A DNA stretch of 64,000 nucleotides. It comes from Loxodes magnus. Taxonomy: Eukaryota; Ciliophora; Karyorelictea; Loxodida; Loxodidae. Positions 185 through 63,939 of the stretch are shown here, one piece after another (positions within the stretch are counted from its first letter, which is position 1; each line of letters begins with the position of its first letter). The position numbers were made by a program, and so were the translations under genes. The stretch spans positions 124,001-188,000 of the forward strand of contig CAMPDV010000135.1 in NCBI GenBank assembly GCA_946699065.1. The letters run 5' to 3'. A model generated the notes under the pieces. That model was not told where the DNA came from and searched no databases. It saw nothing but the letters and a program-made list of their open reading frames with translations.

Positions 185-2002
185 ATGGAATTAGTTTCGC
201 AACAGGTATCTACGTGCTTATAAAATACTGCTTAATTAAGCGAATATATTTAAAGCACATAGCAGTTATAGTCGTTAAATCAATTGGTTCAAAAGGAATT
301 AAAAGGAATCGATGACAATATGAATTAAATTAGTGACATCCTATTGTCTATGCATGAAGTTTCGATTAAACCTTAAAGTGAATAGTAATACAATCCAAAT
401 TCTTTATTAAAAGGAGTGCAACTAATAAACGAGAATGTCCTAAAATGTCTCAATGAAGTGTAGTCTCTTTAGAAATAAACTGAAAACTAAGAAATCATAT
501 GAGCTGACTTAAATGTATCAAGAATAAACTTAGAAACTATCATAGAACAGATTGAACAAATGTGGAAAGTTCCTATTGATGAACTTTTGTTTCTTCCTAC
601 TACTCATTAGCAGTGATTAGAATTAGCACCTCATTATTAAATCATAACAATATGTGATCCCTAAGAAGCTTGAAATTCTTTCATGGAGCTAGCAAGGTTA
701 TTGAGTATAAGTTCAGCTGCCTTTTGGAAAAGTCAGCAAAATGAAAATACAATTCTCAAAAAATTGTTTTTCCCTATCTAGAGTCTTTTTTATGCGTTTA
801 ATAAGGAAAAAGCCTATTAGCATCATTTGGTACACTTTGCAACATAAGATGTTAATTCGTTTTTGTAGTTTTGCAGATTGGTTGAAAGTACAGTAGTACA
901 CAAATCATTCTAACTCTAGTCAACTAGTATTGAAGTTAATTAACTTATATGAATTCCAAGAATTTACACTTGCTTTGAAGAAAACTTATAAAAGTCCGAA
1001 GCACAAAATAAATCCAAGAATAAAATGTAGTAATACTTGGAAAAAGTGAACTCTACATGGAGTAATAATAGATAAAAGGAAGAAATTATTGTAGAAAAAC
1101 CTGAAACATAAGATGAAGCGATACAAGTTAGAGTTATAAGCAACTTTTAAATATCTGCCCTAACTAGGAGATCTAATTTTGCTGAAAGAGCTTCATATAT
1201 TACATATGGTATAGTTCCACCACCTGTCACATTCACTCCTTAAGAATCTAGAGGTCCAGGAAGAATTATTTTCCATATTCATGGAGGAGGTTGGGTTACT
1301 TTTTCGTCAGCAACTCATTTAAGATATCTTAGCAAATGGGCAAAAGAAACTGATTCGATAATTTTCAGTGTAGATTATAGATTATCTCCAGAATATAAAT
1401 ATCCATCTGCTTTAAATGACGTTTTTAACGTATATTGTTGGCTTCTAGAATATGGAGAAACTTTATTGGGTATCAAATTAGATAAAATTGTATTTGCTGG
1501 AGATAGTGCAGGTGGTAACTTAGCGTCTGTTTTGACTATTTTAGCAATCGAGCGAGGCTTACGTATACCTGATGGAATTCTTCTATGCTATCCAGCTACT
1601 TATCCAAGTAAAGATCGTTTCAGCCCAAGTTTGCTAAAAAGCTTTACGGAGCCTATTCTTTCGTATGGTTTTATGAAAATGTGTATCAAATGTTACTATG
1701 GAGATACAAATGAAGACCCTCATAATAATTACTATATCAGTCCTTTATTATGCCCTGACTCCATCATCAAGAAATTTCCTAAGTGTAGGATTTTAGCTGG
1801 TTCCGAAGATCCCTTGCTTGATGATTCTTATAAGATGCTGCAAAAGTTAGTAAAAAACGGAGTTGAAGCAAATCTAAAAGTTTTCCAAGGTTTCTCACAT
1901 GGTTGGCTTCAATTTGATATGCTATTAGGAATGAAACAGGCCAAAAAAACCACTTCAGAAAGTATAAAAGAATTAATGACTCTTTTTTATTAAAATCAAT
2001 GA
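185..2002 (+). CDS. Hormone-sensitive-lipase-like alpha/beta hydrolase
   Basis: A serine hydrolase of the HSL/LIPE type, expected to cleave acylglycerols or other esters in the cytosol or on lipid droplets. It reads as 605 residues when TAA/TAG are Gln and TGA is Trp. The oxyanion motif HGGGW begins at residue 366. The nucleophile motif GDSAGG has Ser441, and the likely acid is Asp542 in DPLLDD. The His is 572 in FSHGW. The 365 residues before HGGGW match the long regulatory N-terminal domain of HSL rather than the short bacterial hydrolases. In-frame TGA Trp codons lie at 500, 614, 671 and 950. The stop is TGA at 2000. I chose the ATG at 185; an in-frame ATG at 149 would add 12 residues. No intron is needed. 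Family assignment is secure; the substrate is inferred. Confidence 0.9.
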
Positions 2003-3026
2003 ATACCCTTATATAGTCACATCTTACTCATTTCTAAGGAATCTTCACCTTCTCATTAAGACTATCTATAAATTTAATCATAATCATATTACTTCAATTT
2101 TAATGACTTCTATAATAAGAAAAGCAGCATTAAAAATAATTAAATATATCATTAAGATTATCACATTAAAGCATCTTTTATACCAAGCATCAAATATTAT
2201 TAAATATAAAAACAATTACATAAGTATATTAAATGCCTAACAAATATAAAGCACTTATTAGGAAATCCTTAATTAAGCAGTATAGCTAACTTAACTACAT
2301 GCATCTAGATATAAATAAATTTATAAAAGATAAGGATTTCTTAGTTAAACATTGTAATCAGGTTAAAGCTATTTAGTAAGATAAATTTTTATATGAATAA
2401 ATTTATGTATTTCAGATAGATTTTCAAGATAGAAAAATTAATCAATCTTTTAATTTTTTAAATGTAAACTTCTTAAAAGTATAAAAAGAACTATGAACAA
2501 TACACTTAAATGTAAGGTATAATGAGCCTTTCAAATAAACTTCTAGCTTAATTAAAAGAATTAAGGTCTATAAATTATATTAGTAAGCTAGTAAAATCTA
2601 AGTATTAAAATATTGAAGCATTAATAATAAAAATAAAAAATCAAGATTAGTCCTTTAAGATTAATATTAGAGGTATAAAAAAAAGTTATAATCATAACTT
2701 TATTCTCTTTCTTACTTTTTTTAAATTCATTTAAACAATTCTTATTAAAATTTCTTTTCCATAAGCAATTTATACAAGCTATCGTTTAGTAATTATTTGA
2801 TTAGCCTTTCCTTATTATTTTTAATATACACTAAAATATTGCCTTAAAATATAATAAAACCAGATTAAAGTTTACCCATATAATTTTTAGAGTTTAGCTT
2901 ATAAGACTTTATGGGATTATAAATACTTGAGATATCTAAATTAATATTTATTTGACTTATTTTAAAATGTGTTTAATTATGTTTATATAAGGAAACTTAA
3001 ATGATAAATTAATAACTAATAAGCAA
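2003..3026. other. Intergenic, A+T-rich
   Basis: About 1 kb between the 3' ends of two convergent genes. I see only A+T-rich sequence with short oligo-A/T runs and no convincing coding stretch in any frame. Confidence 0.6.
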
Positions 3027-3761
3027 TCACTTTTTGATGGTCTTGCAGAGATTTTCTTTTATCCAATCTTTGACGCATTGTAATTCTTTGTCGCTTACTT
3101 AATGCTGAAGTCCATCTTCTACTGTTAAATTGTAGTTTATATCTTTCAAATATTTATGATAACTTTCGGTAGCGCTCTTACACATTAAAGTTAAATCTTG
3201 CTGTCCGTGGTATATAAATACAGGAGTGCTAGGATGTTTTATCTGTTTACTTTCAAAGGTTTCTAAGGCATAACCAGATAAACAAATGATTCCTGCCAAC
3301 TTTTCTTTGGTCTTAACTAATCCTGTGTATAAACTTAGAGCAGCACCTTGCGAAAAGCCTCCTAGCAGAATATTATGATATCCATTTTCTTTGTTTTTGG
3401 ATCTTAGTTCTTCCACTTCTTAATCTATTAGTTTAACTATCACTTCGCTACTTTCTTCCACCTAGTTAATATTGCATTTTCCTGATTATAAGTCTAAGAT
3501 ATCATATCACGAAGGCATTTTTTAGCCCCAATTTATCGTTACTGGCCTCATAGGAGCTGTAGGTAGAACTACTTTGAAGCAAGCAGGACATGGATCTTAA
3601 GAAATCGTGTCAAATACTTCGACAAAACCATATGCTGTATCTCCTAAGCCGTGCAGTCAAATAAGAGTATGAGAATGGTTTTTACATTTATGAGGAAATA
3701 GATGTAGAGTAAGACCCTCTACAAAAAGTCTTCGTCTTAGCATTTGTCCACAGTATGACAT
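3027..3761 (-). CDS. Acyl-protein thioesterase / lysophospholipase (LYPLA family)
   Basis: A 244-residue alpha/beta hydrolase, close to the usual 220-235 of APT1/2. Members remove palmitate from S-acylated proteins and cleave lysophospholipids in the cytosol. Motifs run in the family order: HGLGD at residues 37-41, PTAPxRPVT near 67-75, MPSWYD at 82-87, the GFSQG nucleophile elbow with Ser137, then Asp189 in QQDL and His220 in GLQH. The conserved Trp of MPSW is written TGA (3507-3509), which is strong evidence for TGA as Trp. Gln codons TAA/TAG occur throughout. The start is the first ATG; upstream sequence is A+T-rich. The stop is TGA at 3027-3029. It converges with the lipase gene. Function in protein depalmitoylation is inferred from the family. 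Confidence 0.92.
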
Positions 3762-5443: not shown

Positions 5444-5767
5444 ATGATACTAAACAGGGATTAATAAAATACCAAAAAAGCGAGAAATTATGAAGAAGTT
5501 GAAAATAATGAAAACTGAAGAGCTAGAAAGTTTAAGGTAGCAGTAATCAAAGCTAATGATTTTCTATAGCAGCAAGAGTTAGATAAATTTAAGCCATCTC
5601 CTCCATCTTGTATATCTAGCAAACATAAATATAGACAAGTTAGTTTGAGGTAAAGAACTAAAAATTATTACCCATACTCTGAAAAGTTGTCAACTTATGA
5701 AAGCGATTTAAGCTGTTTACCAGATGAAATTTAGATTATAGGTAGAAGTACATATAAGGATGTTTGA
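5444..5767 (+). CDS. Small hypothetical protein
   Basis: A 107-residue reading frame with coding-like composition (Lys, Glu, Ser, Pro, Asp, Arg) and several Gln written as TAA/TAG. It has one internal TGA (5516) read as Trp and ends at TGA 5765. I recognise no domain. It contains a PSPPS segment and a basic run near residues 60-75. After the TGA at 5765 the frame stays open to 6617, but that part is hydrophobic and low-complexity, so I take 5765 as the true stop. If 5765 were Trp, the protein would be 391 residues. Weakly supported; it could be a non-coding coincidence. Confidence 0.42.
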
Positions 5768-6778: not shown

Positions 6779-7522
6779 ATGAGATTTTAGGGAAAAAACT
6801 GTATAGTAACTGCTTCTTCTACCGGTATTGGACTTGCTATTGCCTAAAGATTTGCTCTTGAGGGAGGTAAAGTTGTAATTTCATCCAGAAAGCAAGAAAA
6901 TGTTGATGAAGCTGTTCTTTCAATAAGGTAAATGCTTGAAAAAAAGAGTTTACCAGTTTCGAATGTTATTGGTCATGCCTGTCATGTAGCTGATCCTTAG
7001 CAACGAAAAGATCTTATACAGAAATGCGTTTAAAATTTTGGAAATATAGATGTGCTTGTTAGCAATGCAGCTATTTCTACTTATACTGGAAAGACTATTA
7101 ACACACCTGAACTTCATATGAAGAAAATGTTTGAAGTGAATGTATTTTCTTCTTTTTTATTAATCTAGGAAAGCTTTCAGTTCATGAATAAAGGAGGTAG
7201 CGTATTGCTTATTTCTAGCTATGCTGGATATAATCCATAGAATCCTATTGGAATGTATGGAGTAACTAAAACTGCTTTACTAGGTCTTACAAAAGCTCTT
7301 GCAAGTGAATTCTAGGCCTAAGAAATACGTGTGAATTGTATATGTCCAGGTCTGATTAAGACTAAATTTGCATAAGCTTTATGGGAAAAAAATTCTTAAA
7401 ATATACCAGTAGGTCTTCCTGAGGATATTGCAGGTGCAGCTGCATTTGCTTGTAGTGCAGATGGAAGATTTATGACGGGAGAAAGTATGGTTGTAAGTGG
7501 ATAGATAATGTCAAGATTGTGA
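6779..7522 (+). CDS. Short-chain dehydrogenase/reductase, DHRS4-like, peroxisomal
   Basis: A 247-residue classical SDR, probably an NADP(H)-dependent carbonyl or retinal reductase. The nucleotide-binding motif TASSTGIG (residues 11-18) has the variant first half seen in DHRS4. NAA lies at 96-98, the catalytic Asn at 121, Ser147, and the YxxxK pair is Tyr160/Lys164. The C-terminus is Ser-Arg-Leu followed directly by TGA. SRL is a type 1 peroxisomal targeting signal and is also the tail of animal DHRS4, so peroxisomal location is likely. This end also shows that TGA acts as stop here, because read-through would mask the signal. The start ATG at 6779 gives a family-typical length. Many Gln are TAA/TAG; no intron. 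Confidence 0.93.
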
Positions 7523-8812: not shown

Positions 8813-10397
8813 TCAGCTCTTGTGAATGGCGCTTCTTAGCTTCTTATCTACTCTCTACTATTCTTCAACTTTTTGTTTCCAAGCTTCTGCTCTGGCTTCG
8901 TTTCCGTGAGCTAACCAAATTAGATCTTCTCGGTATCTCCAATCACTGGGTAGTGGATTTTTGACAGGATAGTGTCTAATAGGCTTATGAGAATCAATGT
9001 TTCAGAATTCTTAATTATCAATCATTAAATTCTAAAGTCAATTTCCACTAATGACTCCTAGCTATTCTTTTGATTAGGAGTTTATAATCAATCCAGATAA
9101 ATCATCATCAAGCCAGCTTGACTTCTCCAAAACTTTTCCAAAATTCTTATTTTTGCCACATATTATAGTACATTATATTCCATTAGCTTCATCGACAATT
9201 GTCATTTCGCCTGAATAATAGTGTACCTGTGTAATTTAAGTCTCTAGTTCCAAGTATAACACCACCAAGTTTAACAACAGGAAGAGTATGAGTAATTCGA
9301 TGTCCATCGTGAAATTCAATGCAAAGAGTACCTTCTTGTCCCACAATTAGAGAGTTTCCGCTAAATTTACCGGTATATTCATAATGCCCAAAAAATTTAT
9401 AATTGCTAGCTTCTACTAAAAAGCAAGAAACAGGAGGATGGTGCTAAATATGCTCTCCATAAATTCTAGTTCCATCAGGAAAATATCCTTCAAAGGTTTC
9501 TCCAAGAAGTGGATTAAACGGTTTCCATTATCTAATACCCATATAAAGCCCAGAAACTGTGAAAGCTATAACAAATTTCATTCTTTAAAGAGGATTTTGA
9601 GTTTCAGCTGCTTATCTTAAAAAAATAGGAGCGAAACTTCATCGATCAGCTAAACGTTCTAATGTACTTCTAGGTTCAAAAATTCTAATAGGAAGGGAAA
9701 CTCCTACAACAGGCTTACCTTTCATAATAAACGCCATTACAGTTTTCATAACAGACATAGCTACACCTGATTACTTTTTAAGTGCTACTTTGTCTACACA
9801 TTTAAGTCCTCCCTCTTTTTATCTCTCAAGTCCTTGGAGAATATCTTCTTTGTTAACATATTTTTCCTTCATTAGGTATTCCTCAGACAGGTAAATGGGA
9901 GGCGGTGATTCTTGATTCACTGTATTTTGAAATCAAAAGGAAAAAATTCCTTTAGGGATTTTTCAACTTAAAACATGAGGATCATTTGTCTCTTCCAATG
10001 GTTAAGTAGGAATTTTAGGAGCATCATCATTATAAGGAATGAAAATATTGAAAACGTATTAAGAAGTTTCTATTTATTCCTATCCAAAAACTACTTAAAT
10101 ATCAGTGAATTTATACAGTTACTACATATCCATTATTTCCTCTTAAGTAGATTTATCTCATAAAGTATATTTCATTTTCTTAGCAAAGGGAGGATTTTTC
10201 ATTCTAACTACATTTTACAAAGATTACTATAGAAGCTTATTGACTTCCTATGTAGTCAACTATTGAGATACCTTTACATGCCATATGAAGGTGTCTGTAG
10301 ACAGTCTATAGGTTTTAGTTTACTCAATACTTTCCTTTTACTCTTCCTCCTTTTTAGAATTCAGGTCTTTCGTATTTCTATTGATTGACTGTGACAT
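8813..10397 (-). CDS. Oxysterol-binding-protein-related protein (ORP/Osh)
   Basis: A lipid-transfer protein of 522 residues after removal of one 16-nt intron (9211-9226). ORPs carry sterols and phosphoinositides between membranes at contact sites. The ORD starts around residue 205. It contains KPFNPLLGETFE at 292-303 and the phosphoinositide-binding EHIQHHPP at 315-322. The ORP C-terminal signature with LPSDWRYREDL and the basic helix after it close the protein. The first 140 residues are not an obvious PH domain. They look beta-rich and could be a GOLD-like or divergent domain. Trp is often TGA; the stop is TGA at 8813. The intron is needed to join GTRDLNYTG to EMTIVDEANG, both clearly ORP. 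Start ATG at 10397 is the first in frame. Confidence 0.92.
9211..9226 (-). other. Intron, 16 nt
   Basis: Sequence GTACACTATTATTCAG on the minus strand. Removing it restores the reading frame exactly inside the conserved lipid-binding domain of the ORP gene. Confidence 0.85.
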
Positions 10398-10686
10398 CTT
10401 AAATTAAGAATCTTAGATCTTTTAAATAAATTTTAATCTTTAAACTTCAATCTATTCATAGCAAGTCTAAATAGATATCATTACCATACAACACAAACAT
10501 TATCTCTGTACTATTAGTAATTAATTAAGTTAGATAGCATGTTTAGTGGATAGGAGTATTGAAACAAATGATTGTTAAATAGAAAGAATAAAGGAATAGT
10601 GTTGCCTAAGAATATAGAGCATCATATTTAGTGCTAGTAGCATTTATTTAAAATAGAATAATCTTCTTTGTCTCCATTAATTTAAA

Positions 10687-14766: not shown

Positions 14767-15183
14767 ATGTAAAGAGAACCTACATACGTTGATTATTTAT
14801 CTCAAGAAATCCCTAGAGCTTCTAATGAATTCTATAACGTTATGGAGTTGGAGTTTATTAAACTTAAGCAGAAAGCAAGTACTTGCTCGCTGAAATGCTT
14901 CCAAGACATTGATCATTTAAAAAAGATACTTAAAGAGCCAAATTTAGAATAGCTTAATATCAAAAATGCGTTACTTTGTGCTAATAAATGTTAATAGAGT
15001 GTACAAACTTGTGAGTAGTTCTGTTAAAACAAAGTTTAATAATTAGATGTTCTACATACAAAGTGCTTAGAATCGGAAAAAGAATTCGCAGAGTAGCAGC
15101 TTATTTTCTGCTTCTAAGAAAGTTTAACCAGATTTAAAGAATTTTAGGATGAAATAGTTAAAGAGTTTTCATACTTTAAGTGA
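14767..15183 (+). CDS. CX3C-motif protein, FAM136A-like (DUF842)
   Basis: A 138-residue helical protein, the same length as human FAM136A. Cys pairs spaced CX3C lie at residues 40/44, 71/75 and 82/86, with single Cys at 100 and 115. CX3C helical hairpins are typical of the mitochondrial intermembrane space, where they form disulfides (small TIMs, FAM136A). Three pairs and the overall length fit FAM136A better than the two-pair, roughly 90-residue small TIMs. No cleavable presequence is seen, as expected for such proteins. Start is the only reasonable ATG; the stop is TGA. No in-frame TGA Trp occurs. Family membership is inferred from spacing and length, not from an exact motif match. Confidence 0.7.
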
Positions 15184-23101: not shown

Positions 23102-23374
23102 ATGAAAACTCCTTTGAAATTTAAAGGTTAACCACTACGCAACCAGGTTAAAGGAAATCCTAAAACAAGTTAAAAGAATGAATCTGCTGAGATAGAATAA
23201 ATATAAATGACTGAAGCAGAGCTAGCATTTTTAACAGCCAAACAAAGGAGAGAAAAGCAAAGATTTCAGCAGCAGCTCAAGACAACTCACAGAGAAAAGA
23301 TTACTAAGTTTAATTAGCTCCTAGGTAAAATGCCTGAGCATAATGACATTCCAAGAGTGACTGGTGCTGTCTGA
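23102..23374 (+). CDS. FAM32A: FAM32A-like spliceosome-associated protein
   Basis: A 90-residue protein. The C-terminal half carries the FAM32A signature: MTEAELAFL at residues 35-43, then a basic helix (TKQRRE-like, KTTHREK), then FNQLLGKMPEHNDIPRV close to the end. Animal FAM32A is about 112 residues and ends in the same DIPKV segment. FAM32A acts in the catalytic and post-catalytic spliceosome during exon ligation. The N-terminal 34 residues are basic and variable, as in the family. The stop TGA (23372) is followed by TAA TAA. It is one of the cleanest cases where TGA ends a conserved family exactly on time. It converges with the kinase gene 127 bases downstream. Confidence 0.85.
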
Positions 23375-23501: not shown

Positions 23502-25576
23502 TCATATGAAAACCTCTGAATTTTTTCGTTCATTTTTCTGAGAAATACTTTTCGTAAGAGGAAATAAGTTTTTGCTATTTATCCAAGGATGCTTTAATAG
23601 ATCATCAATTGAAACTCTTTAGTTTGGATCCTTCGTTAGACATTTTCTCATTACGTCCTTCACAAGTAAGGAAAAATGAGATCCTTCAAAGTCAGGCTCA
23701 GTGTTGATAGTGTCTTAAATTAATCCTTTTCGAGTAGATGCCTTAAATGGCATCCTTCCTTTTAGCCTAAAATAAAATAATACATTAGATAAAGAACAAC
23801 ACCCAAACTTCATACATCTACTTGATGATGATATCCCTACATACTCAAAACTTCAGGGGCAACATAACCTAACGTTCCGCATGGCTAAGTTTATAACTCA
23901 TGAGGACTTAGCATTTTAGCTAGTCCAAAATCTGTAATTTTGACTATATATTTACTATTTTCTATAAAATAATCCTATTCTGAAAAAAGCTTTTACGAAC
24001 ACTAAGAATCTTCTTCAGTTCAAGACAAAGAAGTTTTGTGCTTATGAGGGATTTGCTAAGGCTCTTTCTCCATTACCAATATATTTTCCGGTTTAATATC
24101 TCTATGAATGATGCCACATCTTTGTAAGTACCTAACTATTTGAAGAAGCTGAATAAAAATACATTTAGCAACCTATTCATCGACTCTCTTATACTTCTTA
24201 ATAATTTGAGAAAGTTCCTAGCCTTCTACATATTCCATTACTATAAAAATATGAGTTTTAGATTCATGATGCTCATGCAGCTTAATGATGTTTTTATGAT
24301 TTATTACCTATAAAATTTGAATTTCACTTCTAACCATTTCTCGTTCAAATCCAGTAAGTTTCTACTTATCAATTATCTTTACTGCATATTACTTTTAATT
24401 ATGTTTGTTCCTGGCTAGATAAACTCGCGAGAATTTTCCTTAGCCTACCTACTATGCCAAGTCATAAATTTCAGTAATATCTACTGACAAAGTTACCTAA
24501 TTAAGCTTATTGAGCCAAGTCTCATATATTTCATAACTTTCGAATTGCAACCTAATTTCAGGATAGTTTTGCTAGTCATGAGTTATCTTGAGCTGCTAAG
24601 GATTCTAGATGCTCTACTCTATAAAGTTAGATTCTAAGAAGACGACTCTTTCTAAGTTATCCTTATTGTATACGTACAGCAAATTCTACCTTAAAATCAA
24701 TATTTTTAGGATATCATTGCATAATATTATATTCGATAGCTCCGCATTTTCTATTATTTATCCTGCGCAGATACAGGATAGGACTCCTTACTTTTTAGAG
24801 CTCGCTCATGCGGGCTATAAAAAGCTAGAGGAATTTAATGGAAGTAATAGCCTGGGATGCTACTTAATGATTTTTTTGAACTCATTAAATTGCAGATGAA
24901 GATTTTCCTTTTCATTGAAGACTTCGTTCGCAAAAGATTCGACCTCTGAGACAGTAGGAATTTATTTTAAATTCTAGTTGTTATTAATCGTAATTAGCTA
25001 TTCTGGCATTCCTTTCTGGTTTACTAGATTTACTCCCATCTCAGTTTCTAAATTATCTTGCTGGTCTTACAAATTAGAATGAAGCATTGTAATTAGCTCA
25101 TTTTTGTCTATTTAATTATCTTGCTGTAAGTCATATAAAGAGAACAGTAAGTTTGCTTTTTCATTTGAGGTTCCTCTTGCGCATATAGATATCAAGTACA
25201 TAAAGGTATCGAAATTTACTCCAGCAAACTCTTACTCATTATTAACTTCATTTTTTTTAAGTTTTTCATACAGCCTCTCTCCTCAAAGTCCAGGCAACTT
25301 AAAAAACTGTAAAAAATTAGATTTGCTTATCAGATTTAAGCTAATAGCTTAAGATTGCTGTTCAGGATTCTATACATTTTCGTTTTTTTTTTATTTCTTT
25401 TCTATCTTATAATCCAAGCTCAGAGCGTCAGTGGATTTTAAACAAAGGTCTTCAAAAATGTGTTACAAGGCATTTCTCTCTTCTTTGGTAAATCTCTTAA
25501 AAATCATAAAAGAGTTTTTAATTTGTTCTATTATAGTTTGCTGCTGCTTAGATTTGGTATAAGTTATCTTTTGCAT
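23502..25576 (-). CDS. EF-hand, PH-like and Ser/Thr protein kinase
   Basis: A 685-residue protein after removing a 17-nt intron. An EF-hand lies near residues 145-165 (loop DLQQDNQIDKNE), with a degenerate second hand near 215-235. A PH-like domain covers about 265-360, with RLQFESYEIYETWLNKL as its last helix. The kinase domain runs from about 375 to the end: glycine loop VGQGKFSRVY, Lys about 399 in YAVKII, HRDIKPEN about 489-496, DFG about 550, APE about 575. About 40 extra residues sit between HRDIKPEN and DFG. The order resembles a calcium-regulated kinase of the CDPK/CAMK group, but with the EF-hands N-terminal and a PH-like domain between. Targeting to phosphoinositide membranes under calcium control is inferred. 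The stop TGA lies at 23502. Confidence 0.88.
23767..23783 (-). other. Intron, 17 nt
   Basis: Minus-strand sequence GTATTATTTTATTTTAG. Its removal joins LYLM to LKGRMPF in the conserved kinase C-lobe and repairs the frame. Confidence 0.9.
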
Positions 25577-26597: not shown

Positions 26598-29500
26598 TCA
26601 ACTTTCATAGATACCATTAAGATAAATAACTACTGTCTTTTAGAGTAAAAGTATGCTATATTATTATTAAAGTTAATATAGTTTAATAAATATGCAGAAT
26701 TAGCTTAAGCATTATATTCGTGTTTAACAAAACCGAGAGTAACTTTTGATTGGTAAAATAAATAAATAAATGAAAAGATTAATCGTAAATGAGCCATTAA
26801 GCTTATGTATAGCAGTAATTTAATTATTGAGATTACTACATAGATAAATTAAATTAAAGTGTTATTTTCTATAGCTTGATCCTCTTGGAGATGCTGTTCT
26901 TTTTCCTTTAGAATTCACATTATTTCCAGTATTGCTTTACTATTACTATTACTATTACTATTACTATTATTGCTGTTGTTGTTATTGCTTATTCAATTAA
27001 TTTAATGGACTAAAGCTTATTTATTATTATCCTTTGCCTTATTGACTTGAAGGTCTTCTCATACTTTGGTTATTCTGTTATTAAGTTTATTATTGCTATT
27101 GTTATTGTTATTGCTATTGTGTATTAATAGGTGATTCACCTTATTATTTAAAGATTCCTTCAAAATTAACTGAAGTTAACTTTACTGGAATCTAGTTTTT
27201 TTGCTTTATAAATTAGTTTTATGTAGGCTGTGCGGGAATTGGAGGCTTTAATGTCTCTATGAAAGCTTATTACTCTGCCTTTTCTTTTTCCTCTGGTAAA
27301 ATTTGCTATAAAATTATAAAAATAAAATACCTAATGGTCTAGTTTCATAATCTAAGGTAGTCTTTTTACTGTTCCAATTCTATAATTTGGTTTTCTGCAA
27401 ATAGGATTAGAAGACAACGTTAAGTCTATTAAATACTTAAGATCGCACAACTTTTCTAGTTCTTAGAATTCATGAATTCTGTTATTTGCTAAAAACAACT
27501 ATCTTAGTCTTGTTATTTTTTCGAAGTTTGACAGACTTTTAATGCCATTTTCTTCTAAGTTTAAAATCTTTAGTTACTGATTATGTAAGAATGTAGTGCT
27601 ATATATAAATCTTAACTTACGGCTCTATGAACCTTATTCTGTTCTGCTTAAGATCTAGTTCCTTTAAGTTTTAAAGTTGATCCATAAAATCGATTCTTTA
27701 TATTTCATTCTTAGCTACTCTTAATGCTTAAAGCTCATTGAGATTAGCAAACTAAATTCCATAAAAGTCTTTTAAGAAATTATTGGAAACATCTAGTACT
27801 TCCAGGGATTTTAATCCATTTAAACCTCGTAATTCATTTCCTTCTTGCTTAATATAAAGAGTTTCGATTTTATTTTTAATTAATATCAGTTTTTACAGCT
27901 AGTCAAGGGCTCCAATTCCTCTAAGTGTTTACATAAAGTTGTCTGATAGATTTAATTCTTTTAAAACTGGAAACATTTAAGGAGTTATCATCTCTTCAAA
28001 GTCTTTTAACTTGCATCCACTCAAATCAAGTCTTACTACTTCCGTTCCATTTTTACCTCCTAGCTTACTTTCCAGCAATTCTTCTGTTATTCTTCCATTG
28101 TAAATATCCTTAGCTTTAGCTATTTCAGTTTAGTCGATAGGCAGTCCATCTAGCACCTTAAGTCTTCTCATATTAAAAATTGAGTATAGTCTATAATTTT
28201 TTTCCTTGGAAAGCTAATTTCCAGATAGATCTAGTATAATGAGTTTTGGAAGCTATTTAAGTTAATTAATCTACTTTAGTTCATCAAGTCGATTGTTTCC
28301 AATATAAAGTTCCATTAATTATTTTAGACTTTAAAGTCCAGAAAGGCAGTTTATTTTATTATCCTCAAGCGATAGCTGAGTTAGCTATTCCATATGATTT
28401 AAGTTTTAAATAACTGATATTCGGTTTTTACCCAAATCCAGCTTTCTTAGCTTAGTTTAAATGTGTAAATGCTCTATTAAGCTTATAAAGTTACCCTCTA
28501 AATTAAGTTCCTCTAAGTTAACCAAATTCTAAAGTCCCTTAATCTTTTCAATTTCATTATCTACCAAAGAAAGGATTTTGAGATTAAATAGAGAATTAAG
28601 ATTCTTAATTATTTGCAGATTCATATGGTTGAGAGTTAAGCATTCCACATGCTATTCCCAAGAGTTTTATAGATTATCAAGGTTGCAGCTAAAGCTAGAA
28701 GAATAACTTCTTATCAGTTCGATTGTCATTTCTGTGTAATTCTAGAGTGAATTTTCCTTTTCTTCCTTAGAAATATTTTCTTCATCAAGAGACATAAGAT
28801 TGGGAAGTTCTCGGATTACCTTAATTCTGTATTTTGGATTTAAAGAGATAGGGTTTCCTATCAAAGAAAGAGATTTTAGTTTAAGAAGGTGCTCCTATAA
28901 ATGTCTGAGACAGTCAAAGTGTTGAATTTGATTAGAATACATGATTAAGCACTAGATGCTAGGGTTATTGTTTAAGTTTTCTATTACTTCTATTTTATTA
29001 TGAGTCAAATCTAATGTCTATAGTCGTGCATTGCTCTTCAGGCCTTCTATTTACTGTATTTCGTTAAAGCTTAGAATCAAAACTTCTAAGTTGAGTAAAG
29101 ACTCCAGATTCTGAATTTTTTCGATTCCACATTTAAATAGATTAAGTTGAGTTATCTTTGTAAGAGGATCGTGCTTTCCTATTAAGGTAGTTAAATAAGC
29201 TTCACTAATCTCAATTCTCTTATCATAGTGATTTAGTTGCTAAATTAGTGCAACGTCTTGTGTTTCTTTACTTCTTGAGCAGCATATTTTAAGAAACTGA
29301 AGACCTCCTGATTTGATGCATGACATTTCTGCTCTATCTACTTCACTAGGATTAAGAGACTCACCAGAAGAAATTTAGCTAAAAGTTTGAATTTCCTTAT
29401 CTAGATCAAGTGTTTAAGCATTTTCAGCTGATAGCAGGCTTTTTTCAATTCTGCTAATATGGATGAAGTTATATTCGAATTCTACATAGTATTCTGGAAG

Positions 29501-38744: not shown

Positions 38745-39554
38745 ATGCTTTGCTTGCAATTAACTAGAGTTTATGTTAGAAGCGCAAAAAGTGATTTAGA
38801 TTATTTCCAGCCGGTTGAAGAGATAAAGACAAAGAAATAAGAGTATCATTATATATTTTGAACTTAGTATGGAACAACAGTGTTTTGAAATTTGACTGAA
38901 CTTGAGGAGAAAAGCGTTTTGAACGAAATGAGGAAATTTGAAATAGATAACATTGAAGACTTTTAGATAGATGATCTTGCTTACACTGAACCGTAGAAAG
39001 AAGAACTAATTGAAAAGATCAACCTCAAAAATTACATAGTTCATAATCTACTTAATCTGATTTCCAGCTCTTTTGAAGAGAAACTTTCTGTCTCTTTTGC
39101 TATTGCTTAGAGTACTAAATTAAGTTACTTTGAAGATGAGATAGAAAGTAAAATATCAATACTTAAAAGACTTCCTTATGAAATGCAGCAAACAGGAAAA
39201 ATTAACTGGAGTGGAGAGAAAATTTCTAAAATGATAGGAGATGTTTTTTTGAAAAGTGCTGAAGTAAATTTTGATTTTGATATGTTGGATGAACCTGATT
39301 ATTTCTGGGAGCATGATACATGACACCCACAGTATCAAAAATTATCTCAATACCTGGAATTGCAAAAGAGAATGGATATTCTAAATTAAAGATTTTAGCT
39401 CATTAAAGACTTCCTAATAACTATCAAGGACGAGTATTCAGAAAATTATGAGGATAAACTGGTAGTCATAATTATTTGACTAATTGTTGCTGAAATATTA
39501 TATTAGGTTATATGGGAGATTATTATTAAGGACTGTCTAGGATATTTCGACTGA
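38745..39554 (+). CDS. RMND1/DUF155 family protein, probably mitochondrial
   Basis: A 269-residue member of the RMND1/Sif2/DUF155 family. The N-terminus (MLCLQLTRVYVRSAK) is basic and amphipathic, like a mitochondrial presequence. The body shows the family signature: YGTTVFWNLTE (about residues 50-60), a segment NLLNLISSSFEEKLSVSFAIAQSTKLSYFED, then DMLDEPDYFWEH and a final membrane helix at about 240-258 (LVVIIIWLIVAEILYQVIW). RMND1 is an inner-membrane protein needed for mitochondrial translation; yeast relatives act similarly. TGA encodes Trp in VFWN, in the final helix at 39477 and elsewhere. The last of these is only 25 codons before the TGA stop, the closest pair in the window. Confidence 0.88.
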
Positions 39555-40808: not shown

Positions 40809-41629
40809 TCATGGTTAAATCTGACCAGGAATCAATACTTGTGATTTTATAATATGTACTTCTTCTCCTTTGTACCACATAGAAACAGCTGCAAACATTT
40901 AATCTGTGTCATATGAAATGTTATTGAAAGCAACTCCTGGATTTTAATCTCCATATCTAAAAGAAAGACTACGACCTATTGTGTCCACTTCCATCATTAC
41001 AATTTCTCCTATTTAAATTCCTTTAGAAGCATAATTTTATCCATGATTATTAGTAAAAATACGTCCATTGAATAACTCTATTCCATATCCCTTTCCATAA
41101 AAGTCGAAATATTATCTATCAAGATTTCAATCTCTGTCATTAGCTGTTACTCCTACTGTTATTCCAGGGTCTTAAATATACTTCAACTCAAAAAATACTC
41201 TATATTTATTGCCATATGGAAACGGTTTACTTGCTATTGCATTTCTTCACGGCCCATATGCAGTTCTTTTAACATAAGTACTATTAACAAAGACAAGAAG
41301 TCTATGCGAATATTCTCTAGAAAACTCTACTGTATATGGTTATCATTAATTCTATTGAGATATCTAAGTTTAGTTAGTTGCGTTCTGCTAACTTAGAAGA
41401 ATGATTTGCTCTAAAGAGCTAAGTTATCCTATAAATATTACCAAAACTTACCTTTAGTAGTTTCTTCGTTTCTAGCTTTAGACTTTCTAAAGAGTAGAGG
41501 AACAGAAATACTAGCTATAATAATAGCCAAAGTTAATAAAGAAATCTTTTTCCATCCTTATTACTAAGTCTTTTGCTCTTTTTCTTAATTTTCCTGATTT
41601 AATTTAGTTTTATTAAGTTAAGCATTCAT
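40809..41629 (-). CDS. SPRY-domain membrane protein
   Basis: A 265-residue protein after removing a 23-nt intron. Residues 1-25 are Gln/Lys-rich, and a membrane helix covers about 27-45 (ISLLTLAIIIASISVPLLF). A short linker leads to a SPRY/B30.2-like beta sandwich at about 85-262. SPRY features seen are YRVFFELKY, GITVGVTANDRDWN, YGKGYGIELFNG, IGEIVMMEVD, LSFRYGDQNPGVAF and MFAAVSMW. SPRY domains bind peptides; here it would be held at a membrane with the domain in the lumen or cytosol, orientation unknown. No RING or SOCS box is seen. The coding TGA in NDRDW sits at the conserved Trp. The stop is TGA at 40809. Confidence 0.83.
41429..41451 (-). other. Intron, 23 nt
   Basis: Begins GTAAGTTTTG and ends TTTATAG on the minus strand. 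Its removal links the transmembrane exon to the SPRY exon in frame. Confidence 0.85.
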
Positions 41630-49194: not shown

Positions 49195-49318
49195 TTAATT
49201 AAGCTTAAATAAAATTAAGAAAAGCTAGAAATAGTTATTAGTAATGAATGATATGAATTTAAATAAAGGCAAGTTAATATCTATATAAAATATACCTATT
49301 ATTTTTATTATCTTTATA

Positions 49319-49747
49319 ATGGAGTGTATTGCAGGTCATACATATGAACATGAATAAGGAACCTATTTTATTTTATGCACACGATGTGGTGATGTTCGTT
49401 TTCTAGAATCCCCTTGAACTTTACCTAAAATTTTTGCTGCTTCTATCGATGGAAAATTTAACATATTTACAGAGTTTACTGATGGAGTTGTAATCAAAAA
49501 CCATGGAAACCATTTTGGAAAGCACAGACTTAAAGTAGACTAGAAGACAGGAGCTATTACACCAGAATTAAGTACTGGAGTTGGTTTGTATCATATAAAA
49601 TGGTATATTAATGGATAGCTAAAAATGTGTGTAGCGACTTGTGGACCTAATTTGGAAGGACTTGAACTTACTGCTGAAGCAAAGGAATCAGGATGGATAT
49701 ATAGCGAAGGACAACTAATCCCTCCATTGAAACTTATTAGAGAATGA
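49319..49747 (+). CDS. Compact 142-residue protein, possible Zn-binding
   Basis: A globular, non-repetitive protein with balanced composition, so coding is clear. Cys pairs CTRC (residues 20-23) and CVATC (near 111-115) are placed so that they could bind one metal ion together. Most of the rest is beta-like (FNIFTEFTDGVVIKNHG, LYHIKWYINGQLKM). The C-terminal part (SGWIYSEGQLIPPLKLI) looks conserved in style. TGA codes Trp in SPWTL. I do not recognise the family. The neighbour upstream ends 124 bases away on the same strand. Confidence 0.75.
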
Positions 49748-50377: not shown

Positions 50378-50455
50378 ATGAGGGAGAAGTGGAGAAAGAA
50401 GAGAATGAGAAGACTCAAGCGCAAGCGCAGAAAGATGAGAGCTAAGGCTAAGTGA
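50378..50455 (+). CDS. RPL41: Ribosomal protein eL41 (25 residues)
   Basis: The shortest protein of the eukaryotic ribosome. It sits as a single basic helix at the bridge between the subunits. The 25 codons give MREKWRKKRMRRLKRKRRKM and then RAKAK, almost the universal eL41 sequence; the stop is TGA. Codons are rich in G (AGA, AAG, CGC), unlike the flanks, which fits high expression. It has TGG for its only Trp and no TAA/TAG Gln, so it is readable in any code. It needs no intron. Too short for ordinary ORF filters, but the match is exact enough to be certain. Confidence 0.96.
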   Translation: MREKWRKKRMRRLKRKRRKMRAKAK

Positions 50456-52357: not shown

Positions 52358-52415
52358 GCCTTTCAGTTAAAATTTGAGGTAATATTGATAGTAAAATAAG
52401 AAAGCAACATATACA

Positions 52416-55815: not shown

Positions 55816-58800
55816 ATGAAGTCTGTAATCATGTTGACGCTTTTATTACTAACTTTTGGTAGCGCCTTTCAAAGCCTCGAGGTTTATTTGCTTTTCAGCA
55901 GGTAGACATAAGATTTAGAAAAACACGTTTGAACTTAGTTAGTTGATTATGCTAACTATGCAGTATTTAAAAATAATTCTGAAGCATTACATTTGAAAAT
56001 TAAGAATAGAGAGATTTGAAGGGTGGAAGATATCTTAGTTTTAGAAAAAGAAGTTAGCTAGAAACTTCATGAGAGTGATGGCTTTTTGCTTTTAGACATA
56101 ACAGAAAAAAGTTAGTTTACATAGATACTGCAGATAATTGCTTAAAAATTCCAAATTCCTCTTTTAATAGCTAGTAGATTAGAAATGATACTGCTAAATA
56201 CTTCAGTGTAAATACTACCAACATTCAAGACAGAAGGAATAATTTTAAATGCATTGATGGAAAGATTTGAATTCAATAATATTATAATTATACAACAAAG
56301 CAGCTTAAAATATTAAGAGTCTCTTCATTATATAGACTAGAAAAGAATAAATCAAATATTCACTTTATAGAATTAAGAATATGAATAGTTCTATTTGCAT
56401 GATAAATTTTCCAGTGAGTTGAAATCAGCTGGTGCTCCAATATTCATACTATCCGCCGAAGAATCTTTCACTCTAGAAATTTTAGAAATATCAGAAAACG
56501 CAAAAATTACTGGAGAAGGATTCGCATGAATTCTTTCTCTATACTCTAGTTTTATTCTGAAAAAATAGAATTTACCATCTTTTGATTTACTCTAAAATGG
56601 AATTCTAGGTTTGTAAATACCAATAAATAATCCTTCTAATGAATTAGAATTGATATGGAGTTATATAAAGTTATATTTCGATTAGTTGAGCATTTCAGTT
56701 ATATAGGAGATGACAAAAAGTCAAATGTATTTGAAATAGTTTATCTTAAGATTCAATTAAAAATACTAAAATTAGTTTCTTGAAAGCTTAAATATGGTCA
56801 ATAAATAAGACTAATTGAATGTTTTGACTTAGAAAATTTATAACTTGGAATTGATTGCTTAACTTAAAAATATTACATGGCCTGGAAATACATAAGCCAA
56901 ACCTACCAATAAAGTATCATTAGCTTTTTCTTATGAAATGGCTGACTATACACCTTTAGGTGAATTTTCTTTTGTGGATTGAGCAGTACAAGATACACTT
57001 AGATGTGCTACAATAGAGATTAATAAATAGAGAAACCTTCTAAGTAATTTCAATTTTCAAGCTAATGGACTTAGCTACGGGTAAATGTGATTTGATAGAG
57101 ACTATGAAATTAGCCATTTAATTCCTGATATTGATAGGTTAGGAGTGGCTCATGTAGTAAAGTTCGTAGATCCTATTAAACCAACCTCTGATTTGTTGAA
57201 AGAGTATGACGTAGAGATTCCTTTTATTACAGTTTCAAATGAAGACTCTTTAGCCTAGACAGATTTCTAATGAGATACATATAATTATGCTCATTACTCT
57301 GAGTTTGGGGAAACAATTCTAAAATTTATTCATAAAAATCATTGGGAAAAAATAGGAGTTTATACAGAAGATATAAGTGAATACAAAGTAATAGCTGATT
57401 ATATCATAAATAACACTGACAGGTATAACATCCAAATTATTAGCAATCTTGAGTACAAAATTATTCCTTGGCTTTTAAGTGGAGATGTAGATACAAGAAT
57501 AGTCGGATATTAGCCTATTATCAAAGATATTGTAGAAAATCAAATACGTATAATGGTTCTTCTTGCTTGGGTACCAACTCAGGTAGATTGAGGATATTAA
57601 TTAATGCAAGCCGGAGCTGAAGCTGGAGACTTTGTATTTGTAGGCCACAACGCAGCAAATTATATAGTAATGAGTGATTAGGCAAAGTAATATGGGTAAT
57701 AAGTATTTGTAGATCTATTTGTTGGAAGTTGGGTTTTTATTCATCCTATAAGTTGAAAAAGCGAAGTTGGCTAGGAATAACTGGAGTCTTATAAGCAGTG
57801 TGTGGTTAATATTTTAGAAGACTGGTAATGCTATTTTTGGGACGAAGCGTATATTGTGGCACATGCTATTTAAGAAATAATCAATAAGGGAGAAGATTAT
57901 AATGATCCAAGAATAATGTAAAACACTATAAGAGGAATTGACTTTATTGGAGCTTCAGGTAGAGTAAGGTTTAAAAGAAATAAGTTTAGAGCTGATAATT
58001 TGTTTTTATTCAAAAGTTTGCAATAAATAGATTAAGATTAATATGAGTTTGTATATAATGGTTAGTACTGTCCTGGATGTGCTATCATTTGAAATTTCGA
58101 AAATTCTATTCTCTATAAAAATTCGATAAAAATTCCTCATGATCATTTTCCATAATATGAAGATTGTCCTTTTACAACTAGATATCTTTCTGACTATAAA
58201 GATGGTTTTATAGTCTAAATAAAAATATTAGCAGGTGTTACGATACTAGCAATAGTTTCATTAGCTCTAGGAATTGTGGTTTGGAGAAAAAGAAAATACA
58301 ATAAATTGACAAAGGAACATTATTCTACTTAGGAAGACGATTTTTATTTAGCTGAAATCGTTTTTAAGTGTTTCTAATAGCTTTCTGTAGGACCTGGATT
58401 AGCTTCTTTAAACAATATTTTAGATTGAATAGTCAATATGTTCTCCCTCAATATCTAAATAAGATAAGTATTCTGAATAATCTTTTGGATTTGCTTTGGA
58501 ATATAATCTTTATTCCTTTTGCTTATGATTGCTTTTATAGCTAAAATAGAAATTAAGTTTGAAAATTATTACATCCTAAGGAAGATTGGGTAGTTTTCTT
58601 TCTTTATTCTTCCTTTTATTGGAGAATTGCTTTTCATACCTATTATTTTTGTTTTAACTGATGTATTTTAATGCTTAAAAGCTGTTGATTATGATTTGGA
58701 TGGCTAATTATCCTATAATGAAAGCTTCCTTAAAAAAGATTGCTATACTAATTGTGGTTCCTAGAAGCACATTATTTCTGTAATATGTGCCGCATTTGGT

Positions 58801-59755: not shown

Positions 59756-60522
59756 AAAATTCGAATCTTTATCTATATCTAAATTATTATTGCTTCATGT
59801 CACATTCTTTAAACATATTATCAACAAATTTTAATTCCCTTTTAGTCAAGCAACTAGTGAAAGCCTAGTTAAGCTATCTTATTAAGTTACTTTTAAAAGT
59901 CATTCTTTATATTTTTATTAATTTGAATTCAGCTATATTACAGTCAAAATTGAATCCTAGCCTATACCTTTATTAAGTGAAGAATAGGTAAATAAATAAT
60001 ATATTGATTTAGAAAAGAAGAGACTAGCAAATACTTTATTGCTTGATACAAAAAGTTAAATAATAATATTTAGACTAAATAAAACTATTTGTTTCTATTA
60101 GTGTATTTAAGAATATTGTATAAGTATAGCTTAGTCCTTTAAATCTTTATTCCTTTTATGAAAGATCTTCTCTTTGTAACAATAGAATCATAAAGTAAGT
60201 TAAAGAAAACTTATCTTTAACTAATTTATTTAATTCCATCTATAATTTATATAATTACATCAAATTTGTTCCTTACTAAGTGAGTAATAGAAGTGAAAAA
60301 GACTCATACACTTTCTGAATATTACTTATAGCCTTTATCATTTATACTTCCAAGTCTTATTTTAATAATTCTAAACGCTAGTTTAAATGGTCTTCAATAG
60401 TAACTTTAGATTGGTTTTATTTGAAATTGTAGTATTTTACAAATAAGTTAGTAAAGAAAAGATTGATAATGATAGAGTAAGCTTTAATTATTAACGTAAA
60501 GAAAGGTTTAGTTTTAAAATAA
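59756..60522. other. Intergenic
   Basis: About 770 bases of A+T-rich DNA between two plus-strand genes; nothing supported. Confidence 0.55.
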
Positions 60523-62241
60523 ATGAAGCAAAATCAATGGAAAAGATATTTCGAAATAACAGAGAGTGATGTGAAGATTTAGAAGAGACAGAAGAAAAAA
60601 GTAGCAATGAATAACTATTAATACAATGCTGAAAATCTAATTTAAGTTCCTAATATTGGGGATAAAAAACTGTTTCCTTTAAGGATGGAAATCAAAAAGA
60701 ATATTAATAAATAATTATTTAGTAATCAGCGCTTAAACACTTCTTAGAGAAAAAGCTTCACTATGTTTAATGTTAATAGTTATTCTCCTTCTCCTATTAA
60801 CTACAAGCAGTCTCTCTCAGTAAACTCTGAATAGAGTTCTCATAGATCAAGCTAGTCATACAGCCCTGATGTATAGTCTAAAAGCTTTTCTAGGTAAGAT
60901 AATATTAATAGTGACTTTTTAAACTATTAATTCTAGCCTACACATCGATTTTCGGATTAACAAGATTAGTAATAGAAAGCTTGATCTACGCTTCCTTAGA
61001 AGAAGTTTGTAATCCCAATTATTTAATAGAATTAAGATGATAAAATCCTTTTACTTGACAAACCTTTTTCAAGAGTATAGTGATAAAGAATGCAGTCAAT
61101 AGATCTATCAAACGTTTCACATTATATGTAAAACTCGAAGGCTGATCAATTTTAGCTTTTCGATAGCAGATATTAATTTTATTCTGATGCTTCTAGTCCT
61201 GTTAATTCATACGAAAGACGAAATATTGATGCTTAAAATATGGATCTTTCAAGTGACCGTATGGTAGCAAAATTTCCAGAAAATATAAATAGATAAAAGT
61301 AAAAAGTTTACTCTTTTAACAACTTCTCAGATGCTTCTTAGAGATAAAATTAATAGAATGATTTTAAAGAAAATAAACACAAAAAATGAAGAAAGCCTTT
61401 ATTAAAGGCTTAAACTAGCAAGAGTATCTGACTTAGAAACCTTTAAAAGCAGTACCAATATAAGAAACAATTTTAAGAAAGTGACAAATCTTAAAGGAAT
61501 ACTCCATAGTAGTGAAATAGAGTATAGCTAGAATTAAATCCTAACTAAACTGATCTGTAGGACAAGTTTACTTAAATATCAAATTACTATCTCAATGAAC
61601 AGTATAATTTCCAAAAAAACCTTTAGATGTAGTTATAATCAATTAAAAAGCCACTTCAGGTTTAAAAGCCAAACCAAAAATATGAATCTTTCAGAATACA
61701 GCAAAAATTTCTTAATTAAAAGAAAGACGAGATTTAGAACTTTAAAGATCACAAGTACTAAATTAATTTATTGAGTAAAGCGGATTTAACTACTAATAAA
61801 CTAAAAGGATCTAAAAATGAAGGATAAACTTATAAGTATGTAAGAAAGTTGCCTAGTTCTTATAAGTCAAAGATGGAAAAAAGCATTGAAGAACTTTAGA
61901 AGGGAACAGTTTGGAAGAATATGAAAAAAAACTTCTAAGCTTTTGGTTATTTATGCTAAATATTTGAAATCTATTCAAATTTAGTTTTAATACTTTCAAA
62001 TAAAACTTCTATCTTGCAATAGACAAAATTGTAGCAAAAACTCAAAGTTAGGAAAGGAATAATTAAAATATCTATTTTCTAACAAACCCAACAGTCATTC
62101 ATGATACTAAAGGTATCTCATTTTGATTTATTTTTCTAAATTTAGATTATTAAAATAAGAGCATCAAAAAATTAATTTTTGTATTAAAAACTATCAACTG
62201 CTATCTATATTAAACGAGAAAACCTTAATTTATACCAATGA
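60523..62241 (+). CDS. Ser/Gln/Lys-rich hypothetical protein
   Basis: A frame of 572 residues, convincing to about residue 475 (near 61950). The N-terminal 45 residues are basic. Residues 70-130 are Ser-rich (SYSPSPINYKQSLSVNSEQS) and suit phosphorylation. The rest is Gln/Asn/Lys-rich, with short aromatic patches such as FRIQQKFLNQKKDE. TGA codes Trp several times. No domain is recognised. The end is unsure: the first in-frame TGA is at 62239. A 17-nt candidate intron GTAAGAAAGTTGCCTAG at 61840 would instead stop at 61887-61889, but the unspliced reading there also looks coding. Probably a cortical or signalling adaptor, by composition only. Confidence 0.65.
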
Positions 62242-62820
62242 TAAATGAATTATACAGCTTAATGAAATTTAAGATGTTTTAATTCAATTGATAAATAATT
62301 TATTTAATTTATTCTATATATAAAATAATAAACATTCAGTTAAGTTATTATGCCTCGATATTTAGATATTATTTCTGTAAATTAATAGAAAGATTGTTAG
62401 TTCAGTAATAATAGCAACTAAAATAGGTAGTTCACTTCTATACTTAAAGCCATTATATTATTTAATATTAGCTTAGTTTTATAATCTGGGACTTAAAGAG
62501 TAAAACTAAAGCTAAATATAAGTTATTTAAAAACTTGTAATATCGTATTTCTATAAAGATTAAAGTACTTTCTTAAGCTTTTATTTTAGTATTTAAGATT
62601 AATTTAGTAAATTATATCTAATCTTATTCATATGTTTCCTTTATGCACATCTACAGTCATAAAGTTCTCTTAAAGGTTCTTAACTTAATCCCTATCTTAT
62701 TATATAAAAATGCTCTATAAAGCAATTTATAGTAAGTGAGTATAGCTTAGATAGTATGAGATAATAAAGGGATTTAAATTAAAGGTAAAAAGGAAATAGT
62801 TAAATATAATTAAGATACTC
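62242..62820. other. Intergenic
   Basis: About 580 bases of A+T-rich DNA before the glycosyltransferase; no feature. Confidence 0.55.
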
Positions 62821-63939
62821 ATGAAGTATTCTAAAATTTGTAAACATTTGCTTATTTTCATCTGCTTATCTATTCTCCTACTTCAAACCTTATTTATCAG
62901 TCAAATTATTTTCAAATGTAAGGATTAAAATTCTGCTGAAGATAACATTTAATCCAATTTTTTGGAGAGTAGAGTTGTGAAAACTTGAACTATGCAATAG
63001 ATGGAATAGTATATTTAAGAGGATAAGTCTAATAAAACTAACCTGTTTATGACTGTGACTGATGATAATCCTTTATTATAAGTGAGGAACTTTATTTGTG
63101 TCGAATCGGTATTCAAGTAAAATAACCATTCTCTCAGAGTATTTATCCTGTCTCTAAACTTAGAGCCAGCCTAATTTTAAAAGATTACAAAGTTGGGATA
63201 TGAACTTCATGTAGTTAAAATGAACCTTACTTACATTTTTTAAAAGACACCTTTAGAGACTTGATGGCTAAATAGAAAAAAAGAACTTGAAGCTAATATG
63301 TTATCAGATCTACTTAGAATGGCTTTACTTTATAAGTATGGAGGATTTTATATGGATTATGATATTTTACTTCTTAAGCCTATTATGTCATTAGCTCAAT
63401 AGTTCAAGAATTTTATGACAAGTGAGTTAGATGAAAAACATTATTGGTATATGGATTAATTAACTACCAATGTATCCACATTAGAGTGATAAAACTATAA
63501 ACTAAAAATGGAAAACTATAGTGCTTGCTTTTTTACGAAGGTTAGAATTATGTATAAACCAAATGGTTGCTTCATGCATTTCTAAAAGCATAATGAGTTT
63601 TTATATTTTGTTATGATTTTAATTTAGAAAGAATATAGTTGAGATGGACCCTGATGTGCAAATGGACCAGATTTACTTAACAGAGCCTTCAACTACTTCT
63701 AATCTATTAAGCCTTTTCTTCTTCCTAAAAATCATTTCCATATATTTTATAAAAAAGAAGGATAGCATAGATTATTCGGACTGAATACCATCGATAAATA
63801 ATAATAGCTAAAATATTATGATGCGTATGGAGTTCATTTTTAACAAGGTAGAACTTAAGGATGAAAGATAAACGAGACTTCTTTTTTCTTTCAACTCCTA
63901 CAAAACAATAGACTATTTTCAAGCCCAATTCCTATTTGA
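62821..63939 (+). CDS. Golgi glycosyltransferase, alpha-1,4-galactosyltransferase-like (DXD type)
   Basis: A 372-residue type II membrane protein. Residues 10-31 form the signal anchor (LLIFICLSILLLQTLFI). The catalytic domain shows SDLLRMALLYKYGGFYMDYD, with the DXD metal-binding pair Asp179/Asp181, and later GPDLLNRAFNYF, as in the Gb3-synthase/A4GALT family and in OCH1-type enzymes. It would move a sugar from a nucleotide sugar onto glycolipid or glycan in the Golgi lumen; donor and acceptor are unknown. TGA codes Trp in several places, including LEWQ and GPWC. The stop is TGA at 63937; if that were Trp, the frame would run off the window. Length and domain order suit a complete gene. Confidence 0.85.

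Follow-up and report, generated by a model that had tools for sequence, protein, structure and literature searches.

We examined the genetic code of a window of 64,000 nucleotides from the genome of Loxodes magnus (contig CAMPDV010000135.1, positions 124001-188000, forward strand), in which an earlier note had read TAA and TAG as glutamine and TGA both as tryptophan and as the sole stop. We conclude with high confidence that the window is karyorelict ciliate nuclear DNA in which UAA and UAG encode Gln and UGA encodes Trp inside genes and a stop near their 3′ ends, a core code already known as NCBI table 27. Under the standard code the longest open stretches in the window are 250 (+ strand) and 117 (− strand) codons; with TGA as the only stop they are 609 and 877 codons. 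Searches beyond the window covered 705,730,643 bases in 7,843 contigs, the published L. magnus assemblies being reported at 848 Mbp (germline) and 706 Mbp (somatic) (PMC11441545).

Coding segments were delimited with a codon hidden Markov model (HMM) that holds no stop or start rule and whose seed was a single lipase exon, taken in whichever frame had the fewest stop triplets; it yielded 36 segments of at least 30 codons. A second model left gene starts and ends free over all 64 codons and allowed short GT-AG introns. Its commonest start was ATG (19.9) and its commonest end TGA, with 11.5 of 36.9 expected ends, followed by GTT with 4.7. When each codon in turn received 90 % of the weight on ends, TGA took first place among the 64 and led the next codon, TTT, by 8.3 log-likelihood units; TAA came 10th and TAG 16th. 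With modelled ends counted apart, coding codons included TAA, TAG and TGA at 50.6, 30.0 and 7.6 per 1000, alongside CAA at 24.2, CAG at 9.4 and TGG at 4.5. No single end codon improved on a model with uniform ends; the difference for TGA was −2.1, and −1.0 once ATG starts were used. This point against the reading of TGA as the stop arises because many of the segments end at exon borders or have blurred ends; TGA joined by 20 % TAA or TAG did better than uniform ends. As a second end codon at 30 % weight TAA ranked 15th and TAG 11th of 63, so the window offers no ground for another stop. Counts of codons at most five from the segment ends of the first model were uninformative (TGA at 10 of 36, TAA at 16, ATT at 14), and Rfam and ARAGORN scans of the window gave no matches.

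Sense readings of TGA, TAA and TAG

Homology alignments were made blind, with stop codons masked as X. Thirty of the 36 segments were taken into a Pfam scan, which placed 11 in a family above the curated cut-off and three more only below it. The families above the cut-off were two lipase/esterase types, a reductase, an oxysterol-binding protein (OSBP), PHD, kinase, LRR, kelch, DUF155/RMND1, SPRY and a glycosyltransferase. For five window proteins TGA was then read as W, C or R and the Pfam bits compared, all TGA of one domain being scored together. Summed bits were 532 for W, 507 for C and 499 for R, and W was best in four of the five proteins.

One such site is the TGA at 3507-3509 (− strand), within the MPSW motif (3507-3518) of an acyl-protein thioesterase (segment 3033-3785), which in the blind phmmer alignment faces the MPSW Trp of acyl-protein thioesterase 1 (APT1), as the earlier note had it; this domain scored 136.9 bits with W, 127.0 with C and 124.9 with R. 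The TGA at 23810-23812 (− strand) occupies the Trp site of DxWSxG, here DVWSLGV, in a protein kinase (segment 23720-25492) with Pkinase bits of 191.5 (W), 184.1 (C) and 183.3 (R); a PDB search with this kinase found no match at 1e-40. The proposed Trp of VFWN (motif 38880-38891, TGA 38886-38888, + strand) in the RMND1/DUF155 protein (segment 38532-39524) likewise held up, W scoring best for DUF155 at 136.4 bits against 134.3 for C and 127.6 for R. ANF_receptor bits, from a gene segment at 56221-58422 with seven in-frame TGA inside, were 35.7 for W, 29.0 for C and 28.5 for R.

The same comparisons were extended to protein kinases across the genome, using the top 40 of 136 scored kinases with stops masked and dropping alignment columns with fewer than ten other residues. 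The share of W in the other sequences was 0.645 at TGA columns and 0.641 at TGG columns against a background of 0.008, and for 20 of the 28 TGA codons scored W was the commonest residue of the column. The third residue of DxWSxG was encoded by TGG in 27 kinases and TGA in nine, with no other codon among the 36 motifs found; four of the 40 kinases yielded none. Q had a share of 0.074 at TAA columns, 0.085 at TAG columns and 0.106 at CAA/CAG columns (background 0.015), with an admixture of K and E at TAA/TAG columns similar to that at CAA/CAG columns. The claim that UAA and UAG are Gln is borne out by these columns and, narrowly, by summed bits in the five window proteins (532 for Q, 528 for K, 526 for E and 484 for Y).

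Were the internal TGA pseudogene lesions, sequencing errors or selenocysteine sites, they would not be expected to share the column profile of TGG or to take turns with TGG at the Trp of all 36 DxWSxG motifs found, nor does their frequency in the window, above that of TGG, fit; nothing observed spoke for such an origin, which we regard as practically untenable. The Trp and Gln readings nevertheless meet several contrary observations. The in-frame TGA at 41127-41129 of the SPRY protein (NDRDW motif 41127-41141, − strand) is not in a Trp column: bits favoured R (34.5) and C (32.1) over W (31.6), so this example of the earlier note falls. A second TGA of the thioesterase alignment and TGA in the OSBP alignment stand opposite non-Trp residues, and eight of the 28 kinase TGA fall where a residue other than Trp is the commonest in the column. 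For TAA and TAG, Gln leads Lys and Glu by a small margin and scored best in three of the five window proteins. The evidence throughout is that of sequence.

TGA at the ends of conserved proteins

Three window genes had been said to end at TGA exactly where their families end, and PDB and Pfam ends agree. In the DHRS4-like reductase (segment from 6824, + strand) a TGA at 7520-7522 follows MSRL, with p 0.78 in the blind end model; the match runs to residue 232, the last residue (of SRL) of the DHRS4 chain, codon 233 being TGA, and the last residue of PDB chain 2zat, 260 of 260, falls exactly one codon before that TGA. The FAM32A homologue (DIPRV at 23345-23359, + strand) ends DIPRVTGAV-TGA, with the TGA at 23372-23374; its match reaches residue 109 of a 112-residue chain, and three further codons precede the TGA. 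The eL41 gene (+ strand) consists of 25 codons at 50378-50452 that cover positions 1-25 of 25 of Pfam Ribosomal_L41, and the next codon, at 50453-50455, is TGA.

Further TGA ends were placed by the blind model with varying p. On the − strand these are the end of the thioesterase gene at 3027-3029 (p 0.50, with a rival ACC at 3039-3041 at p 0.48), eight residues past the end of the Pfam match, and that of the oxysterol-binding protein gene at 8813-8815 (p 0.86), whose segments are 9243-10439 and 8819-9235, the second with its Oxysterol_BP match under the cut-off. On the + strand are those of the RMND1-like gene at 39552-39554 (p 0.54), a gene without family assignment at 49745-49747 (segment 49322-49744; p 0.57), the ANF-receptor-like gene at 58426-58428 (segment 56221-58422; p 0.78) and a DXD glycosyltransferase gene with Pfam Gly_transf_sug at 63937-63939 (segment from 62917; p 0.53).

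Two other window genes may be described here. A segment at 26877-27302 (− strand) encodes on translation a poly-Gln run written mainly in TAA and TAG, with a tandem repeat of TTACTA at 26937-26969; LRR segments adjoin it, with predicted introns of 22 and 25 bases between them. A cysteine-patterned protein encoded at 14770-15144 (+ strand) had no Pfam match and looks, by eye, like FAM136A.

In the genome at large, all 31 histone-fold places were examined, and the first candidate end was TGA in 29 and TAA in two. Twenty-two of the 29 TGA ends match paralogues or a known family (five H3, six H2B type, seven H2A type and four H3 variant). Sixteen actin-family genes, drawn from 96 matches as one per set of similar copies with fragments excluded, had TGA as first candidate end in 14 and TAA in two. 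HSP70 tails (11 of 68 matches) ended in TGA in nine cases and in TAA-TGA in two. Among Rab tails (20 of 150 matches) nine had a Cys motif followed by TGA, two read CCK-TAG-TGA, three had TGA without the motif and six were unclear. The two with TAG, genes L167 and L168, have four paralogues that read CCK-TGA, and their proteins may carry one extra Gln or may stop at the TAG; over the histone-fold, actin, HSP70 and Rab samples these were the only recognisable ends at which TAG was seen, each time followed by TGA. HSP70 matches were observed in tandem arrays (contigs C45 and C86), and 43 actin matches of near-equal score, on contigs such as C266, C711 and C524, had TAG and TAA but no TGA among their listed stops.

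Taken with the column data, the double meaning of UGA is upheld, and the assignment to the karyorelict code stands for the window together with the genome-wide kinase, histone-fold, actin-family and HSP70 samples described above.

Candidate UAA stops in ARP1 and H3-variant genes

The earlier note had held that TGA is the sole stop and that TAA or TAG at conserved protein ends would speak against its reading. The claim is sound within the window, where a second end codon gained no support, and probably does not extend to the whole genome, in which TAA stands at the expected ends of two ARP1 and two H3-variant genes. In both ARP1 genes examined, L153 and L154, which lie on contigs C10 and C193, TAA directly follows the last residues of ARP1. 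In the match to L153 the PDB ARP1 chain stops at residue 341, and the next codon, 342, is TAA; the end of L154 was compared with L153 only. Ungapped identity between the two is 202 of 331 before the TAA and one of 22 after it, and TGA-ended pairs have the same pattern of identity around their stops. Two of six H3-variant genes, L074 and L077, on contigs C34 and C327, have TAA at the position of the TGA of their sister L075 on C146. At the expected end of L077, TAATAATAA, the codons are TAA TAA TAA, and in-frame TGA is absent from the 109 codons seen, counted from that TAA. L077 is identical to L075 at 114 of 123 positions of the body and over the last 100 codons has pN 0.021 and pS 0.58, and is therefore not like a decayed copy.

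A coding-versus-background score was calibrated on 48 genes which, having been picked for their TGA ends, are silent on how frequent TAA ends are. It averaged +0.47 before those ends (standard deviation (sd) 0.24, minimum −0.14) and −0.16 after them (sd 0.18, maximum 0.32), and for the four TAA the 27 codons that follow scored −0.13, −0.15, −0.32 and −0.39. We lean towards the view that UAA is a rare second stop as well as Gln, with UGA as main stop and Trp and UAG as Gln only, and that the code is probably a graded one, set by the codon and by how far it lies from the poly(A) tail. The abstract of a 2022 paper on karyorelicts reportedly notes that a small minority of transcripts may use UAA as stop, of which the ARP1 and H3-variant genes would be concrete cases; a literature search at the level of titles and abstract openings found no UAA-ended Loxodes genes named.

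Strict table 27 offers a different account, in which UGA is the only stop and the TAA in the ARP1 and H3-variant genes either encode Gln ahead of extra protein tails or reflect unseen introns or assembly errors; it competes with the addition of UAA only, not with the core code, and we consider it possible, if rather doubtful. It accords with the Loxodes paper, whose text names UGA as the only stop (PMC11441545), and with the window, where a second stop is unneeded. In-frame TGA follow 5, 23 and 40 codons on in L074, L153 and L154, respectively, and in L154 an intron of 40 bases could span the TAA, so that longer proteins are possible. These points weigh against UAA stops, as do the overlap of the score ranges (coding minimum −0.14, untranslated region (UTR) maximum 0.32) and the score of −0.05 for the stretch of L153 from its TAA to the next TGA. 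Strict table 27 is harder to reconcile with L077, which is under purifying selection and has no TGA in 109 codons from its TAA, or with paralogue similarity that stops at TAA and gives way to sequence that scores as UTR-like. A short intron fits the TAA in only one of the four genes: no GT-AG intron of 15-40 bases was found across the TAA of L153, L074 or L077, a check that is weak as a control, the TGA-ended actin gene L140 having ten candidate introns across its end and L075 none.

Codon usage ahead of stops bears on the same choice. The test drew on 39 genes chosen for their TGA end, each family or diverged paralogue being represented once. Over the final 20 codons TAA occurred at 9.0 per 1000, against 28.8 earlier in the genes (Fisher p 4.5e-4), and TGA at 0 against 5.7 per 1000 (p 0.03). 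There was no drop toward the end for TAG (19.2 against 16.7 per 1000) or CAA (26.9 against 17.3). The depletion of TAA is hard to explain if UAA never terminates. As a further point against UAA stops, the test pools codons across genes of unlike TAA use, which makes its p value rough. Three of the seven late TAA come from one Rab gene and 55 of the 237 earlier ones from one long window gene. A first count, which included many histone paralogues, had given p 1.6e-7, of which the 39-gene repeat is a weaker version. A figure legend in the Loxodes paper gives UGA and UAA, and not UAG, as depleted before the stop (PMC11441545).

A code like that of Condylostoma (table 28), in which all three codons are both sense and stop, would take in the UAA candidates in ARP1 and the H3 variant and also the two Rab genes with CCK-TAG-TGA in place of the CCK-TGA of four paralogues. 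TAG is, however, undepleted near gene ends (in a small sample) and only 16th as a single end codon, and in both Rab cases TGA comes directly after the TAG; we judge this extension very unlikely. If some genes must end at UAA, as we favour, the tabulated code for the species is incomplete and gene predictions that stop at UGA only wrongly lengthen UAA-ended proteins.

Decoding factors and comparison with other codes

The pattern of a tRNA with a UUA anticodon matched 182 places in the genome; all of the 100 listed carry TTA, and ARAGORN gave a TTA anticodon in the three loci tried. The body of this tRNA we take to be like that of tRNA-Gln. A tRNA-Trp array on contig C148 has anticodon CCA, and its copies L187 and L188, both read whole, have a T27.C43 mismatch (in our own numbering) and therefore a 4-bp anticodon stem. 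The anticodon arm of this tRNA-Trp had 126 matches at no more than two mismatches, and the 100 listed were all CCA, 72 exact on C148 and 28 on C67 with A27.C43 (the C67 copies being seen as 29 bases only); none of those 100 had the UCA form, in a search that covers only similar sequences. Published work describes a tRNA-Trp(CCA) with a 4-bp stem as a reader of UGA and reports it from Loxodes (PMC13092985, PMC12005148). Against this route, the tRNA-Trp copies on C110 (L037 and L038) have 5-bp stems.

Some features of the tRNA loci were observed in passing. On C110, tRNA-Trp(CCA), tRNA-Arg(CCT) and tRNA-Met(CAT) (L037, L191 and L192) are 85-86% identical over nearly their full length and differ in their anticodon arms, which look as if they had been swapped. 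Among contigs C148, C67, C214, C78, C103 and C158, tandem arrays of tRNA genes or tRNA-like matches repeat Trp every ~241 or 187 bases and the UUA tRNA every ~275, and tRNA matches of equal score recur every ~527 or 1,753 bases.

Two eRF1 genes, L005 and L006, lie on contig C196. Compared with human eRF1, L005 keeps NIKS, but in the residues just before it Glu is replaced by Ala, Thr by Arg and Ser by a masked TAA (Gln); in YxCxxxF, Phe replaces Tyr. We take the altered sites to be E55, T58, S60 and Y125 of the human protein and to have a role in stop recognition. The best match to Pfam eRF1_1 was another gene, L004, which is not eRF1 and is presumably Pelota-like.

From these parts a mechanism can be proposed. 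UAA and UAG would be read as Gln by the UUA-anticodon tRNA, which would have to be charged with Gln and to read UAG by wobble. Internal UGA would be read as Trp by tRNA-Trp(CCA), whose main copies have a 4-bp anticodon stem. By analogy with the model published for Condylostoma and Parduczia, in which codons are read as sense unless they lie close to the poly(A) tail, where they act as stops (PMC4967479), UGA near the 3′ end of the mRNA would terminate where eRF1 outcompetes the tRNA, and poly(A)-bound proteins probably help. If UAA is added to the code, as seems somewhat more plausible to us, eRF1 would still accept UAA at transcript ends, with UAG purely sense. The cause of such a graded code may be an eRF1 with Ala at what we take to be Glu55 and Phe at Tyr125. 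When one codon serves as sense and as stop, codons no longer have a fixed meaning, and position in the mRNA can decide between the two, as is known for karyorelicts. If UAA stops are real, this genome is a natural test of the choice of eRF1 among UGA, UAA and UAG, with ARP1 and the H3 variant as ready test genes.

The code described here agrees with table 27 of Parduczia and Loxodes in its reported Gln meaning of UAA and UAG and the double meaning of UGA (PMC11441545, PMC4967479), and with the reported depletion of UGA and UAA, not UAG, before the stops of Loxodes (PMC11441545). It differs from table 27 in the probable rare UAA stops of the L. magnus genome. In Blastocrithidia UAA is also reported to have a dual meaning; that code differs in that UAA and UAG stand for Glu and UAA is the termination signal. 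Condylostoma shares with L. magnus the lack of a dedicated stop, its codons being described as sense except close to the 3′ end, where they act as stops, and a tRNA-Trp(UCA) is reported as undetected there too (PMC4967479). The eRF1 of Condylostoma is inferred to use all three stops (PMC4967479), whereas in L. magnus UGA dominates, UAA seems rare and UAG has no stop-like signal.

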